64,000 nt of DNA from Olsenella sp. An270 (GTDB taxonomy: Bacteria > Actinomycetota > Coriobacteriia > Coriobacteriales > Atopobiaceae): positions 124,001 to 188,000 of the forward strand of contig NZ_NFJF01000005.1 in the NCBI RefSeq assembly GCF_002159735.1, given 5' to 3'. The notes under the pieces were generated by a model that was not told the DNA's origin, made no database searches, and saw only the letters and a program-made list of their open reading frames with translations. Of the stretch, positions 47,920 through 63,577 are shown piece after piece. Positions within the stretch are counted from its first letter, which is position 1, and every line of letters begins with the position of its first letter. Both the position numbers and the translations under genes were made by a program.

Positions 47920-48330
47920 CTACCCTTCGATGTCGCCCGGGTCGAGCGGCTCGACGTCTATGACGACATGATGCCGCCCCGCCTCGTCCCTGAGCGAGAT
48001 GAGCGCGGACATCATCCTGAGGGTCGCGTCGCGCTGAAGCTCGAGGGCCCGGTCCAGCGCCCTTCGGTCGTAGCCCTCCGCCCCGCGAGAGTTCAGTGCG
48101 CGGGCGATCTGGTTCAGGTTGACCCCCTGCCTGTGAACCTCGAGCCACGCGCGGTGCAGGCGCTTGAAGTCGATCACGACGACTTTCAAATCGTCGGAGT
48201 AGATGAGGGCGTCACGGACGAGGTCGCTGACGCGAATTCCGCATTTCCGCGCCTTCCGCCTGAGCTCCTCCCGCTCCCTCTCCGTGACGTACACCTTGAT
48301 TTGCTTGTTCCGGATCCTGCTCTCGCTCAT
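47920..48330 (-). CDS. MobC-like relaxosome accessory protein
   Basis: ATG 48330 has GGGAGG seven bases upstream; the upstream extension of the frame runs through non-coding repeats and is not used. The 136-aa product begins MSESRIRNKQIKVYVTERER with a ribbon-helix-helix-like N-terminus (REELRRKARKCGIRVSDLVR). A helical MobC-type region with VHRQGVNLNQIARALNSRG follows, the family signature. MobC helps melt the origin of transfer for a relaxase. No relaxase is found, but strong palindromes lie just upstream. Confidence 0.85.
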   Translation of the reverse strand: MSESRIRNKQIKVYVTEREREELRRKARKCGIRVSDLVRDALIYSDDLKVVVIDFKRLHRAWLEVHRQGVNLNQIARALNSRGAEGYDRRALDRALELQRDATLRMMSALISLRDEAGRHHVVIDVEPLDPGDIEG

Positions 48331-48509
48331 CTCGAACCTCCCGTTTTTCATTTTTCGCTTTTCGTGAACGGCGACGCCGCCGGTCCGGCCTTGCGCGACT
48401 TGCGAGATGAGGGGACGCCCCCCCGGCGGGGCGGCGCCCCCCAGACCGCAAAAACCGGGCGCGCGAAGAACGGGGGGCTCCGGACGCGCGACCCCGAAAC
48501 GCGCGAGTC

Positions 48510-48576
48510 GCAAGATGGAAGTGGGTACCCAGCCGCCGCAGAGGGGCGAATTGGGTACCCGCTTCCTACATCTTGC
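48510..48576. repeat. Interrupted inverted repeat upstream of mobC-like gene, candidate oriT component
   Basis: GCAAGATG and CATCTTGC at the outer ends (48510-48517 and 48569-48576), and GGGTACCC-type inner arms (48523-48530 and 48553-48560), form a large imperfect hairpin. Paired palindromes directly before a mobC gene are usual for origins of transfer. Confidence 0.5.
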
Positions 48577-48606
48577 AACGTGAGCAGCGGCTCGCCCGAT
48601 GCGAGA

Positions 48607-48662
48607 GGGCCTGTGTGTCCCTTTGCCCGGTGACGCCACCGGGCAAAGGGACACACAGGCCC
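48607..48662. repeat. Perfect 26-bp inverted repeat with 4-base loop
   Basis: Arms at 48607-48632 and 48637-48662 are exact complements around the loop ACGC. There is no U-run. It may be part of the transfer origin or a very strong bidirectional terminator between the integrase and mob regions. No gene is supported in 48331-48885. Confidence 0.85.
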
Positions 48663-48885
48663 GGTCCCCCGCCACAAGTTAGGCCGCTCGCTACAGAGGA
48701 GCATGGTGATTGCGACACACACCGCAAAGGCCGCCGCAGTCGAGCACGAGTCCGATCGTGAGCATGACGCAATGAGCGCCCGACGCGACCGCGATGCAAG
48801 CGCGGGCTTTTTTGGAAAATGCCCTGACGGTGTCCACGAGAGACGACTTGCCTCGCAAGGCTTACAGCAAGACGTCTGCTCGTGG

Positions 48886-50145
48886 CTATGCAGACTCGTC
48901 ACCATTGCCCAGCATGATTCGGTCCATAGCCTCCATGCCTTCTCGCTTGCTGTCAGCAAGGGCATCCGCGTACACGTTGAGCGTCATGGCCGCATTGCTG
49001 TGGCCGAGAACGGAGCTCACAGTCTTCACGTCCAGGTTCCCCGATGTAGAGGAGATCGCCAAGGTCGCGAAGGTGTGCCTCAGGTCATGGAAGCGGGGCG
49101 GAACCCCCTGCGTCCCGACGAGCCCCACCGCCCTCGCCAGGGCATGCCACTCGTGACCCAGGACCTGCGGGCTGTACCACGTTCCGCTGATTGGCGAGCC
49201 GATCACAAACAGGGAGTCATCCCAGTCCATTCCAAACTCCTCCCTGTCCGCAATCATCGCTTGCTTGCGCTCCGTAAGAACCAGGAGGAGCCCCTCCCCA
49301 AACGGCACGTTTCTCAGGGAGCTTTCCGTCTTGGGGGAGCTAAGCACGTACCTGCCGGCAGAGCGCGAAAGAGAGTGGCTGATCCGGATGCTGCGTCCCT
49401 CAAGGTCGACATCGCTCCACCGCAACGCGCATATCTCCCCCTGGCGCATTCCGGTCGACAGGGCGATGCGGACTCCGACCGCGAGGGGCGACGGGCCAAA
49501 TCCCACGAGGGCCCGATTGAGCCTTGCGACCTCTCGGGCGCTTAGGGCGTTGACGGGCTTCGCCCTTCGCCTGGGGGCGTCGACCCTATCGAAGGGGTTG
49601 AGGGTCAGGTCCCCCATTTTGCAGGCGTACGTGAAGACCTGCTTGGCGAACACGTGGATGTGAGAGAGCGTCGTGCTGCTGAGGCCGTCGGCGGCCATCC
49701 CCTGCTCCCAGGCGACGATCAGCTTCGGGGTGACGTCGCGCAGCCTCGTGTCGCCGATCTCGGTTCCCCGTATCTTGGAGATGTGGGAGCGGTACCCCCT
49801 TATCGTCACCGGACGGACCGCCCGAGAGAGCTCCTTGCGCATGACGTACAGCTCCGCGTACTCGGCGAAGGTGGTGTCGCACGACGCCTCCTCCAGGCGC
49901 GAGCGCTCCTCCTCGGACGCGACCAGCTCGTCCCTCCACCGGCGGAGGGCCGTCTCGGCGCTCGCCCTGCCCCGGTTGTCGGGGGTGACCTCGCCCGTCG
50001 CCTCGTCGACCCTGTCCGGGTAGCACCGGACGCCGGTGGTCTTCGTGAGCCGGTGCTGCCTCCCGTCCTCGCCCTGCCAGTTGACCACCGCGCGCCACTT
50101 GCCGCCGTGCTTCGACACAAAGCCCTGGGTGTATGCCCTCCGCAT
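48886..50145 (-). CDS. Tyrosine integrase of the tRNA-fMet element
   Basis: The product is 419 aa, ATG 50145 after GGGAGGCAAGCG. The N-terminal arm-binding domain (FVSKHGGKWRAVVNWQGEDG) is followed by a SAM-like core-binding domain and a catalytic domain with Arg in LSTGMRQGEICALRW, HDLRHTF, the second His in VLGHSNAAM and the Tyr nucleophile in TLNVYADAL. It catalyses site-specific recombination at the tRNA gene. It lies at the attR end, opposite to the tRNA, about 170 bp from the core. Confidence 0.95.
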   Translation of the reverse strand: MRRAYTQGFVSKHGGKWRAVVNWQGEDGRQHRLTKTTGVRCYPDRVDEATGEVTPDNRGRASAETALRRWRDELVASEEERSRLEEASCDTTFAEYAELYVMRKELSRAVRPVTIRGYRSHISKIRGTEIGDTRLRDVTPKLIVAWEQGMAADGLSSTTLSHIHVFAKQVFTYACKMGDLTLNPFDRVDAPRRRAKPVNALSAREVARLNRALVGFGPSPLAVGVRIALSTGMRQGEICALRWSDVDLEGRSIRISHSLSRSAGRYVLSSPKTESSLRNVPFGEGLLLVLTERKQAMIADREEFGMDWDDSLFVIGSPISGTWYSPQVLGHEWHALARAVGLVGTQGVPPRFHDLRHTFATLAISSTSGNLDVKTVSSVLGHSNAAMTLNVYADALADSKREGMEAMDRIMLGNGDESA

Positions 50146-50418: not shown

Positions 50419-50601
50419 GTCCTTCTCGCTGGCCCGTCCTTCTCGCCGAGTGTACGAGTTAGCCCGCAGGAGCCGTCGAAAACGGCGCCTCTTGGCGACG
50501 TTTCCCCAGTTGACAAGGAAGCGCCCGGAGCCGAGCGAGCCAAAACTCGTACACTCGGCGCCGGGCGCCCCAGGACAGCCCTTTTCGCGGGCGAGAAGAA
50601 C
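50419..50601. repeat. Large nested palindrome in the intergenic region beside cutC
   Basis: Outer arms are GTCCTTCTCG (50419-50428 and 50436-50445) against CGAGAAGAAC (50592-50601). Inner perfect 16-bp arms are GCCGAGTGTACGAGTT (50445-50460) and its complement (50544-50559). A small hairpin GCCGTCGAAAACGGC lies in between. The CGAGTGTACG core recurs at 53032. No protein is supported here. Confidence 0.7.
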
Positions 50602-50602
50602 C

Positions 50603-51298
50603 TCAGCCCAGCTTCACGATCTTGGTGCCGTGAACCTCCTGCACGCCGAGGGCCTCGGCGACGGACTCGGCGTTCTCGAAGGTGATGCCGCCGCCGGGCA
50701 GGATGGTCAGGCGCCCCGCGGCGTGCTCGATCAGGCGGCGCAGATGGTCCAGGTTGTCGGCTATCGGCGTGCCGGCGGCCCCGCCGTGCGTGAGGATGCG
50801 CTCCACGCCCAGGTCGGAGAGAAAGCCGATGGCCTCGCGCTGGCGCTCCTCGGTGAGCTCGTCGAACGCCATGTGGAAGGTCACCATCACGGGCGGGACC
50901 TCCGTCCCCGACTCGTCGGTCACGGGTCCGTGCGCGGCCTCGACGAGGCGCGCCGTCATCTCGCGGTCCACGACCGCCTCGCCCGTCTCGGCGTCGGCGG
51001 TCAGGCAGCCAAACACGACGCCGTCCACGCCCAGGCTGCGCGCCATGGCCACGTCGTCGAGCATCATCTGCTCCTCCGCGGCCGTGTAGACGAAGTCGCC
51101 TCCGCGCGGGCGGGCCATGGCCATGACGGCCGTCCCGGCCTCGCGCACGATGCCGACGGCGGCGCGAATGACGCCGTAGCTCGGGCTGGTGCCGCCCACG
51201 GCGAGGTTGTCGCAGAGCTCGATCCTCCCCGCCCCCGCGGCGAGCGCGGCAGGCACCCGCTCGACGTTCTCCGCACAGAACTCCCTCAGCAGCGCCAT
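50603..51298 (-). CDS. cutC: Copper homeostasis protein CutC family
   Basis: The product is 231 aa, ATG 51298 after GGGGAGG. It is a TIM-barrel protein with the family pattern: N-terminal LREFCAENVERVPAALAAGA, GRIELCDNLAVGGTSPSYGV, the MARPRGGDF motif, VDGVVFGCL, TFHMAFDEL, ERILTHGGA and the end GGGITFENA. Long linked to copper tolerance, CutC has also been proposed to be an enzyme; its reaction is unsettled. It lies alone between intergenic repeat arrays. Confidence 0.93.
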   Translation of the reverse strand: MALLREFCAENVERVPAALAAGAGRIELCDNLAVGGTSPSYGVIRAAVGIVREAGTAVMAMARPRGGDFVYTAAEEQMMLDDVAMARSLGVDGVVFGCLTADAETGEAVVDREMTARLVEAAHGPVTDESGTEVPPVMVTFHMAFDELTEERQREAIGFLSDLGVERILTHGGAAGTPIADNLDHLRRLIEHAAGRLTILPGGGITFENAESVAEALGVQEVHGTKIVKLG

Positions 51299-51468: not shown

Positions 51469-51695
51469 TTTCTTGGAATCGCCGGGGTTGTCCTGAGGGC
51501 GTCTAGGGATTGCGGCCCTTGTCCCAGGAGCGTCTAGGAATTGCCGCCCTTGTCCGGCGAGAAGGACCTGCGGCCGGACAGCCCCTCGGATTCCCGGAGT
51601 TTTTCTCGCCAAGGTCGCCGTTTTCTAGGCTGTCACCTGACAACGTCCCGAATTCTTAGATCTCCTCATGACAAGGACGCAGATTCCTAGAAGCA
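51469..51695. repeat. Mirrored 31-bp-period repeat array with 55-bp core (array 1)
   Basis: Direct units with a TCTAGGAAT-like head and a CCCTTGTCC-like tail begin at 51471, 51502 and 51533 (period exactly 31). A 55-bp core with inverted ends GGCGAGAA and TTCTCGCC occupies 51556-51610. Inverted units follow with TTCTAG-type ends at 51623, 51653 and 51684 (periods 30 and 31). The core is 51/55 identical, in reverse complement, to that at 53174-53228. Confidence 0.85.
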
Positions 51696-51713
51696 GTGCG
51701 CGCAGCCCCGTTC

Positions 51714-52997
51714 CTACGCAGAGACGGCGATCCAGTCCCACGTGCGACGACGACGGTCCCAGCGCAGGCGTGCCCGCACGGAGGCCTCCTGTCCGTCGCG
51801 CAGCCCGAGCTCCCCCATCAGGCGTTCCGGCACCAGGCAGTCGCCCACGAAGGCCGACCCGCCGCGAGAGACCCTCACGGTCCCCGTCACGCGCCGCTCC
51901 ACGTCATCGGGTCGCGGCGGCTCGACGTGCTCGACCGAATCTGCCACGAAGCCCCACGCGTCCTCATCCTCGCGATACGACGCGACGGCGACGCCGCTCA
52001 GCATCGAGAGATCGGCGATGCCCAGCTCCGCCACGGTCCGCGCCGGCACCAGCACGTCGCCCGTCGAGGCCGTGCCACCGGGCAGCCGCACAAAGCCGTA
52101 GTCGCCCACGCGCTCGAAGCGGCCCTCGAAGCGCCGCACGAAGACCGAGCGCAGCGCCTCGTCCCCGCAGACCTCCGGCGTCCCCAACACGGAGCGCCCG
52201 TCCGGTGAGAGCACGGCGTCGTAGACCTCGTGCGCCCTGAGCTCGCGCGCCAGGCGGGCGTCGTGCACCACGCTGCGCTCGATGCTCACCTGCGGCGCGC
52301 CAAACTCGCGCACGGCGGAGCGCCGATAGGCCGTGATGCCCAGGGCGCCGCGGCGCGGGCTCGCCCACTCCACGTAGATCGGCGTGCGCGGGAGGTCGTC
52401 CAGGGCCTCGGGGGTCTCCCCCTCCTCGTCCGGCGCCTCCCAGGTGCCGTGGCGCAGGTCCTCCGCCATCACGAAGGGCTCCGGGCCGGACCAGGACACC
52501 AGGGACTCGAGCTCCTCGGGGGACCCGGAGAAGGCCGAGAAGAGCGGACGCAGCAGCGGTCCCGCCTCCGACGTGGAGATCAGGACCCGCTCGCCGTCCG
52601 AGCGGGAGCGGCCGCCCGCGAGCCACTCGGCGTCCGGGACCACGACCGTCGCGGAGCGCAGGGAGTCGAGCAGCGCGCGGAGCCCCCGCTCGTCATGGGC
52701 GCGGCGCAGGTCCCACGCGAGGTCGGTCAGGCGGCGCAGGAGGTTCTTGTAGAGCACCTCGTTGCCGTCATCCGGCAGACGGAGCTCGGCGATGCCGCGC
52801 AGGTGCTCGGCCAGGCGCGGGGACGCGCCGTCACGGCGCACGAGGTCGCAGAGGACCCACGAGAGGGCGCGGGAGACGCGCTCGTCCCCCGGGTGGCGCG
52901 CATGCTCGCGGCGCGCGAGCCCGAGCGCCTCGTCCAGGCGCCCCGACTTCCGCATCGACGTGATGATCCCGCTCGCGCGGGCCGCGTCATCGCCCAT
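51714..52997 (-). CDS. Uncharacterised protein with helical-repeat N-terminus and two OB-fold-like domains
   Basis: The product is 427 aa. The first 110 residues are helical and TPR-like (LDEALGLARREHARHPGDER). The middle is unique. The last 150 contain two similar domains: RFERVGDYGFVRLPGG, then TGDVLVPARTVAELGI; and GTVRVSRGGSAFVGDCLVPE, then RLMGELGLRDG. This pattern recalls cold-shock/S1-type OB folds. It may bind RNA or ribosome-associated nucleic acid. It sits alone between two mirrored repeat arrays. No name can be given. Confidence 0.75.
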   Translation of the reverse strand: MGDDAARASGIITSMRKSGRLDEALGLARREHARHPGDERVSRALSWVLCDLVRRDGASPRLAEHLRGIAELRLPDDGNEVLYKNLLRRLTDLAWDLRRAHDERGLRALLDSLRSATVVVPDAEWLAGGRSRSDGERVLISTSEAGPLLRPLFSAFSGSPEELESLVSWSGPEPFVMAEDLRHGTWEAPDEEGETPEALDDLPRTPIYVEWASPRRGALGITAYRRSAVREFGAPQVSIERSVVHDARLARELRAHEVYDAVLSPDGRSVLGTPEVCGDEALRSVFVRRFEGRFERVGDYGFVRLPGGTASTGDVLVPARTVAELGIADLSMLSGVAVASYREDEDAWGFVADSVEHVEPPRPDDVERRVTGTVRVSRGGSAFVGDCLVPERLMGELGLRDGQEASVRARLRWDRRRRTWDWIAVSA

Positions 52998-53060
52998 GGC
53001 ACCTCCCGCCGACGAGTCGCTCCCCTTTCGTCGAGTGTACGGGACTCGCGCCGCGGGCGC

Positions 53061-53282
53061 TTCTAGGAATCCTCGTCCTTGTCGCCAGGCGTTCTAGAAG
53101 TTGAGGCCCTTGTCCGAGAGCGATCCAGGAACTCGGGACGTTGTACCGCCCCGTTCTAGGATTCGGCGACATTGGCGAGAAGAACTCCGGGAATCCGGGA
53201 GGTTGTCCGGCCGCAGGTCCTTCTCGCCGGACAAGGGCGGCGATTCCTAGAAGTCCCTAGGACAAGGGCGGCAATTCCTGGA
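53061..53282. repeat. Mirrored 31-bp-period repeat array with 55-bp core (array 2)
   Basis: Four direct units begin at 53061, 53092, 53123 and 53154 (period exactly 31). The core is at 53174-53228. Two inverted units beginning GGACAAGGGCGGC lie at 53229 and 53260, again 31 apart. The whole is an imperfect palindrome of about 220 bp between two genes of the same direction. Confidence 0.85.
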
Positions 53283-53286
53283 CGCC

Positions 53287-54081
53287 CTACAGGCTCTCCA
53301 GCAGCTCGCGCATCGTGGCCTGGACCGCGTGCTCCGCGTTGGAACCGATCACGCGCTGGGCCACCTGCTTCACGGCGTAACGCGCGTTGGCCATCACGCA
53401 GGGGTGGCCCACGTAGCGCAGCATCGCGTAGTCGTTCATCGAGTCACCGAAGGCCATGACCTCGTCCGGCTGGATTCCCCAGTAGCGCATGACCTGCTCG
53501 AGCCCCGTGGCCTTGCTCACATGGCGCGGCGTCACGTCGATCCAGCGCGAGCCGCTCGGCAGGAAGGTGAACCACTCGGAGAGCTCGCGCTCCAAGACGT
53601 AGGCCATGTCCATGATCTGCTCGGGGCGGTCGCAGCAGATGGACGCCTTGATGATGCTCACGTCGGGCGACGGCGGGTCAAAGACGCAGATGGCGTCGGG
53701 CAGGTCCTTGTCCAGCTCGCGCACGTAGGCGCTCTGGTCGTTGAGCAGGAAGGCGTGGCCGGCGTCATAGAGCGCGAGGTGCAGACAGTCGAACATCTGG
53801 CACGTCTCGAAGAGGCGCATCACGGAGAGCGTGGAGAAGACCTCGCGGTCGAGCAGCCGGCCATCGGCGTAGACCTGCGTGCCGAGCGAGGCCACGTAGT
53901 CCATCTCGTCGGCGACGGGCTCGAAGAACCAGCGAAGCGTGTCGTAGCGACGGCCGGAGCTGGCCACGAAGCGCACGCCCCGCTCGGCGAGCCGGTGGAT
54001 CAGCTCGAAGGTCTCCTCGGGGACCTGGGCGTCCTCGTCGAGCAGGGTGCCATCCATGTCTGACGCGATGAGCTTAATCAC
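53287..54081 (-). CDS. Cof-type HAD-IIB phosphatase
   Basis: GTG 54081 has GGAGGAG upstream and overlaps the previous stop. The 264-aa product has motif I ASDMDGTLLDED, motif II VASSGR, motif III Lys in HVSKATGLEQV and motif IV FGDSMNDYAML, with a C2B cap between. It is a Mg-dependent phosphatase of sugar phosphates or similar small metabolites. It is paired with a second HAD gene, probably by duplication. Confidence 0.9.
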   Translation of the reverse strand: MIKLIASDMDGTLLDEDAQVPEETFELIHRLAERGVRFVASSGRRYDTLRWFFEPVADEMDYVASLGTQVYADGRLLDREVFSTLSVMRLFETCQMFDCLHLALYDAGHAFLLNDQSAYVRELDKDLPDAICVFDPPSPDVSIIKASICCDRPEQIMDMAYVLERELSEWFTFLPSGSRWIDVTPRHVSKATGLEQVMRYWGIQPDEVMAFGDSMNDYAMLRYVGHPCVMANARYAVKQVAQRVIGSNAEHAVQATMRELLESL

Positions 54082-63552: not shown

Positions 63553-63577
63553 GTTCTTCTCGCCTGCCGAGAAGGAC
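63553..63577. repeat. Inverted pair of the GTTCTTCTCG motif
   Basis: GTTCTTCTCG (63553-63562) and CGAGAAGGAC (63568-63577) are separated by CCTGC, forming a 10-bp stem with one G-T mismatch. It lies between tetR and the next gene. The pair resembles the ends of the 55-bp cores of the intergenic arrays. Confidence 0.7.

Follow-up and report, generated by a model that had tools for sequence, protein, structure and literature searches.

Mirrored arrays of 22-bp sites with a 31-bp period recur at gene ends in an Atopobiaceae genome: candidate platforms for a DNA-binding protein

Two mirrored arrays around one gene

The DNA analysed here is a 64,000-nucleotide stretch (the window) of the genome of Olsenella sp. 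An270 (Atopobiaceae; 2.01 Mb in 14 contigs; hereafter G000), in which a 427-aa gene with an S1/CSD-like TOTE domain lies between two repeat arrays. A CutC-family gene is located downstream of array 1, and array 2 sits at the 3' end of a gene encoding a HAD-family hydrolase (Hydrolase_3), a position that it occupies in four species. Unit positions in both arrays were set with a PWM built from the copies present in the same genome, which resolved each array into a continuous series of 22-bp sites (TCTAGGAATCGCCGCCCTTGTC) with a 31-bp period and with all units facing the centre. Same-strand steps in the PWM scan are 31 bp in every case, and the forward-to-reverse step at the centre is 44 bp in array 1 and array 2 alike. 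The features are listed below; all individual units were placed by the PWM scan, and array 1 as a whole by the scan and its geometry.

50603-51298, minus strand: CutC-family gene, downstream of array 1
51471-51691, both orientations: array 1, three forward and four reverse 22-bp units, 31-bp steps, central 44-bp step
51471-51492, plus strand: array 1, unit 1 (TCTTGGAATCGCCGGGGTTGTC)
51502-51523, plus strand: array 1, unit 2
51533-51554, plus strand: array 1, unit 3, innermost forward, near consensus
51555-51576, no strand: array 1, 22-bp centre, containing the 12-mer copy GGCGAGAAGGAC at 51556-51567
51577-51598, minus strand: array 1, innermost reverse unit, degenerate
51608-51629, minus strand: array 1, reverse unit
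51639-51660, minus strand: array 1, reverse unit
51670-51691, minus strand: array 1, outermost reverse unit, 22 bp from the stop codon of the 427-aa gene
51714-52997, minus strand: 427-aa gene, S1/CSD-like TOTE domain, between the arrays
53062-53282, both orientations: array 2, five forward and two reverse units, 31-bp steps, central 44-bp step, adjoining the stop codon of the HAD gene
53062-53083, plus strand: array 2, outermost forward unit
53093-53114, plus strand: array 2, forward unit
53124-53145, plus strand: array 2, forward unit
53155-53176, plus strand: array 2, forward unit
53186-53207, plus strand: array 2, innermost forward unit
53208-53229, no strand: array 2, 22-bp centre, containing GGCGAGAAGGAC on the minus strand at 53217-53228
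53230-53251, minus strand: array 2, innermost reverse unit, exact consensus
53261-53282, minus strand: array 2, outermost reverse unit
53287-54081, minus strand: HAD-family hydrolase gene (Hydrolase_3)

The two arrays match each other in inverted orientation over 133 nt, with 88% complementarity. The initial annotation had described mirrored 31-bp-period arrays, matching in opposite orientation, around the gene, and these are real and part of a larger set than it had noted. Its separate 55-bp core module, on the other hand, dissolves into the 22-bp centre, a spacer and one further degenerate unit, the innermost reverse unit of array 1, which the core had masked; the GGCGAGAA/TTCTCGCC ends ascribed to that core are copies of an independent 12-mer, GGCGAGAAGRAC. 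CRISPR had been dismissed, correctly: CRISPR arrays are direct repeats in one orientation with unique spacers of similar length, whereas the spacers here are 9 bp long and the arrays are mirrored.

The 12-mer occurs 416 times in the 2.0-Mb genome, against a single match for the reversed-pattern control. Besides the two array centres, its sites in the window include 50436-50447, 50590-50601 and 63553-63564, among others. Of 81 sites, 47 lie outside called genes, in 25% of the sequence, which is an enrichment. Inverted pairs of the 12-mer are present in 24 of the 31 genus genomes, and it resembles DNA-uptake- or terminator-type sequence.

The 427-aa gene was considered as a partner of the arrays. 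It is missing from two array-bearing species (G003 and G023) and is therefore not their partner; it is also found in G006, G025 and G020, which are without arrays of the 31-bp type. The distribution of the protein, with its TOTE-conflict-system S1/CSD-like domain, is patchy (6 of 31 genus genomes, one of them a weak match). Mobile-element genes, encoding a NikA/MobC-like mobilisation protein and a tyrosine integrase, lie beside the arrays at 47920-50145 of the window.

The 31-bp arrays across the genome and the genus

Used as a DNA query, array 1 returned 138 matches in G000, and a two-unit pattern matched exactly at 95 positions there against none for the reversed-pattern control. About 0.5 Mb of the genome was read for arrays. 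In all 40 arrays read, the forward units precede the reverse units, save for one spurious extra match in array 1; same-strand steps are exactly 31 bp in 227 of 237 cases, and the centre step is 44 bp in 33 arrays and 75 bp (44 + 31, one lost unit) in three. These step counts and the pattern matches set against their control exclude a chance origin of the array geometry. Together with three further arrays found later (C1:75-296, C7 near 121-278 and C13:6266-6486), the genome holds at least 43 copies, in agreement with the genome-wide family that the initial annotation had offered as an option. Such arrays are thus not unique to this locus, and the period is held in the other copies and in other species.

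The arrays are oriented >>>..<<<, the exceptions being a few composite arrays of joined mirrored modules. They contain up to six units per side, with left and right numbers that are often unequal (2/5 and 5/2, for example). Within the unit, positions C2, A7, A8, G14 and T18-T21 are near-invariant, and at the positions between them G or C is strongly, if degenerately, preferred. Sequence in the 9-bp spacers is practically unconstrained, and the innermost units extend symmetrically into the centre (ACGG..CCGT).

Nearly all 31-bp arrays of G000 are intergenic, mostly at gene 3' ends, and their neighbours, as read from the sequences, are ordinary housekeeping genes. According to a codon-usage gene caller made for this analysis, the 38 arrays with both neighbours called lie between tandem (24), convergent (10) or divergent (4) genes, and 20 of the 24 between tandem genes are closer to the 3' end of the upstream gene. 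In six arrays the outermost unit overlaps the gene end in an identical register, with the array starting 4 bp before the end and the stop codon inside the unit. A crude count revealed no clear difference in the loss of intrinsic terminators at array-bearing 3' ends (no terminator detected at 35 of 60 array-bearing ends and at 70 of 97 others, some of the detections being array hairpins). Placement at gene 3' ends is also expected for any element excluded from promoters and genes.

Arrays in G003, G014, G023 and Atopobium sp. UBA1382 are orthologous in position to arrays of G000, and identity in their flanks is about 76-99%. The 13 array comparisons that were aligned, which take in a few pairs with poorly aligning flanks, give a divergence of 0.20 in the flanks, 0.44 in the spacers and 0.24 over the whole unit, and 0.03-0.05 at unit positions C2, A7, T18, T19 and G20. 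Gaps within orthologous arrays are mainly whole 31-bp steps, and spacer length is kept while spacer sequence turns over. Inert insertions would be expected to decay evenly, and the observed pattern would fit sites kept in phase by selection.

The two-unit 31-bp pattern was found in 5 of 31 genus genomes and in none of 89 genomes outside the genus. Its absence from the other 26 genomes, among them G024, which is sister to a species that bears arrays, indicates that the 31-bp type is dispensable or replaceable. The more distant species G022 carries two arrays only, in a segment (L080, G022:C3:328000-347000) with flanks mostly 90-98% identical to G000:C9 that looks like a chromosomal transfer; no multiplication of these arrays followed there. 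A scan with a different, central pattern of 84,980 species representatives, which may omit G000 and very near genomes, identified Atopobium sp. UBA1382 (Coriobacteriia, Atopobiaceae) as the sole carrier of true arrays, the three matches outside Atopobium being single chance matches. No 31-bp arrays were detected in viral contigs by an exact-pattern scan, a BLAST search of plasmids and phages with array 2 gave no match, and a search of the open-access literature for such repeats in this group found no paper.

Other mirrored families in the genus

A sequence-free search for mirrored arrays yielded 46 candidates against one in block-shuffled larger loci, many of them 31-bp arrays and some of them coding noise. 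In G025, which is without the 31-bp type, this search uncovered arrays of unrelated units with periods of 40-42 bp (four helix turns). Helix phasing is therefore general in the genus, and unit sequences differ between species.

One of these other families, family Y, is built from the unit CAAAAC-N5-CKCGTG with a variable tail, in a >>..<< layout. As determined from nine arrays of G006 and G025 and 13 read in G000 (two without a detected outer reverse unit), its successive steps are 40-41 bp, about 121-124 bp at the centre (113 bp in one array) and again 40-41 bp. Outer units differ in sequence from inner ones, many arrays have an asymmetric AT-rich motif (GTTTTCCCAGTTGnGAATATnA) at the dyad, and four arrays overlap a gene end in the manner of the 31-bp type, starting 2 bp before it. 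Half-to-half offsets in 51 arrays, which are not independent as several species have values in common, fall at 157-160, 167-168 and 177-179 bp, with nothing between these groups and with about 10 bp from one to the next. A scan for the two-unit family Y pattern, whose control was silent, matched 14 of 31 genus genomes and none of 109 from the family's other genera. A strict detector, which would miss divergent arrays, gave no convincing array in a 331-kb sample of DNA from those other genera. Combining the 43 or more arrays of the 31-bp type with 45-50 of family Y, extrapolated from six in about 256 kb, we estimate that G000 carries about 90 arrays.

Comparison of shared sites between species revealed changes both within and between families. 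At one orthologous intergenic site, family Y units carry the tail GTGATGAA in G025 and GTGTGATG in G006, and each tail matches the other arrays of its own genome, as would be expected if a trans-acting protein had changed its specificity. At another shared site, G006 has family Y and G025 has an array with a 41-bp period. The 3' end of dgt is occupied by the 31-bp type in G000, G014 and G023, by a 41-bp-period array in G025 and by a palindromic family Z in G003, G024 and G006, and at the murG-murC site the array is absent in G024, G025 and G004. In this small sample, the dgt and other shared-site comparisons thus indicate that certain sites are occupied repeatedly, by different families, and the gaps at gene 3' ends may just be where such sequence is tolerated.

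Further interspersed repeats were observed in these genomes. Family Z, the third interspersed family, is a palindromic element with arms like GAGTGTACGA..TCGTACACTC and an AT-rich centre (L195, L196, L198 at the dgt 3' end, and L123:16520-16630). REP-like tandem hairpin repeats with a period of about 61 bp are present in several species of the genus (L167, L168 and L170 in G019, L174 in G007, L133 in G025), and G000 contains a paired palindrome, CGCTCGTGAATTCACGAGCG, with copies about 53 bp apart (L227:2714, L227:4734 and L228:1491).

The presence of several families at one intergenic site, as at the dgt 3' end, together with the patchy distribution, is what might be seen if the arrays were non-autonomous mobile elements or their remnants, that is, multi-site ends of a transposase or recombinase joined without cargo and inserting near gene 3' ends. 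Family Y, with its outer and inner arm types and centred asymmetric motif, would then be comparable to the attachment site of a recombinase, in which two arm sites lie to either side of an asymmetric AT-rich core at the dyad. The ends of Mu, Tn7 and IS21-type elements and attP likewise comprise several asymmetric sites of about 20 bp, in opposite orientation at the two ends. Unlike these, the arrays have no cargo, little common internal sequence, conserved genomic positions and signs of purifying selection. Orthologous arrays stay put, with 3-5% divergence at contact-like bases against 44% in spacers, most copies have nothing internal in common apart from the sites, viral contigs contained none by exact pattern, plasmids and phages gave no BLAST match to array 2, and the two arrays of G022 arrived with a transferred segment and did not multiply. 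Set against the features of MITEs, the copies have little internal sequence in common; an empty-site comparison at one family Y locus did not align and resolved no clean empty site, and flanking duplications were viewed by eye only. Mu_transpos_C had no matches in the genus, but its control was silent too. We therefore regard mobile elements as a rather unlikely account of the arrays as they now stand: a mobile origin is possible, given the core-plus-arms layout of family Y, and the present sequence conservation argues that the copies are functional in place.

Folding, known repeat systems and a putative protein platform

The inverted layout, the location at gene 3' ends and the folding of array 2, whose RNA is strongly stable relative to shuffles (z -7.3), are all compatible with arrays that act as RNA, as long transcribed hairpins ending or protecting transcripts. 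In the same test, however, array 1 is only modestly stable (z -2.4). Complementarity between units of the same array is 0.733 for mirrored and 0.725 for non-mirrored pairs over the whole unit, and 0.620 and 0.613, respectively, in the variable middle. An excess was found only in the few bases at or beyond the inner end of the unit (0.488 versus 0.431 in within-array shuffles, a value reached by 0 of 500), and it comes partly from the shared extension of the innermost units. The lack of covariation between mirrored units indicates that what is conserved is the DNA sequence, not a long RNA hairpin. Unequal left and right unit numbers (2/5, 5/2) and spacing in helix turns, which has no RNA rationale, also speak against this account, and at the gathering threshold Rfam returned no match at the arrays, its sole match being a tRNA. 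Action as RNA is hence improbable, and the single long branched RNA stem proposed for each array in the initial annotation is not supported by these data. Its suggestion of bidirectional terminators fares likewise in the RNA sense, which covariation and folding make unlikely; as a protein roadblock, it is possible.

Several known systems bear a partial likeness to the arrays. RepA iterons, SopC and ParR/parC are protein-binding direct repeats with helix-related spacing, present at one or a few sites per replicon. The arrays, in which protein binding is putative, have direct repeats at a similar helix-related spacing but number at least 43 chromosomal copies and are mirrored about a centre. Pneumococcal BOX elements, made of distinct A, B and C modules and read as RNA hairpins, are also modular, variable in internal unit number and dispersed between genes, whereas the arrays use one unit type in both orientations. 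BIME-2 elements, which are DNA gyrase sites in E. coli, are likewise repeat arrays outside genes, to which a DNA-organising protein is recruited, but they have no such sequence or geometry. Gyrase cleavage has been mapped (PMC6379681).

REP/BIME repeats in general are palindromic hairpin units, many of them GTAG-tagged, which alternate in orientation and are associated with RAYT (PMC2817692, PMC3733652). Like the arrays, they occur in tens to hundreds of extragenic copies with species-specific sequences, and roles in chromosome organisation and termination have been suggested for them (PMC2817692, PMC3733652). If the arrays were REP/BIME repeats maintained by a RAYT transposase, dozens of copies outside genes, at 3' ends and in either orientation, would likewise be seen. 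Their units, however, are not palindromes and have no GTAG tag (the 22-bp PWM is asymmetric), their orientation is mirrored once rather than alternating, and they are helix-phased. In G000, the genome richest in 31-bp arrays, no Y1 transposase was found (no matches to PF01797, against 28 of 31 genus genomes with matches), which excludes RAYT for this genome and leaves maintenance by such an enzyme very improbable indeed.

The arrays are probably DNA platforms for a sequence-specific, self-associating protein, kept by selection on the host. The putative protein would bind the asymmetric 22-bp unit and associate with its own copies, and the 31-bp period (three helix turns) would set all bound copies on one face of the DNA, such that two series of bound proteins would face each other over a fixed centre. 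The arrays could then act as two-way insulators or roadblocks at gene ends or as chromosome-organising sites, options to which we give about equal weight and between which the crude terminator count did not discriminate. Binding, self-association and either form of action are what we infer from the array geometry, the conservation of contact-like bases against diverging spacers, the positions held across species, the intergenic and mostly 3'-end location and the species-specific units. Whole-turn spacing with free spacer sequence, as in protein-bound helix-phased arrays, is found at periods of 31 and 40-42 bp and in the centre groups of family Y. A putative protein platform would account for the helix phasing, the constant centres, the freedom of the spacers and the concerted unit change, and none of them needs RNA. 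The protein-organised chromosomal site listed among the options of the initial annotation fits this reading.

More tentatively, the arrays may represent an undescribed class of chromosome sites, comprising several mirrored, helix-phased families (about 90 arrays per genome, by extrapolation), each with its own putative fast-evolving, self-associating DNA-binding protein. Different species would build these families from unrelated site sequences, sometimes at the same gene ends, and the sites with their proteins would constitute a nucleoprotein layer, particular to each species, at the 3' ends of genes. If this is right, chromosomes of a gut-type actinobacterial genus would carry abundant geometry-constrained sites whose putative protein partner changed its sequence preference between closely related species. 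The arrays would then provide a natural test of the constraints that helix phasing sets on the assembly of nucleoprotein, and would lead directly to a new protein that organises or insulates DNA.
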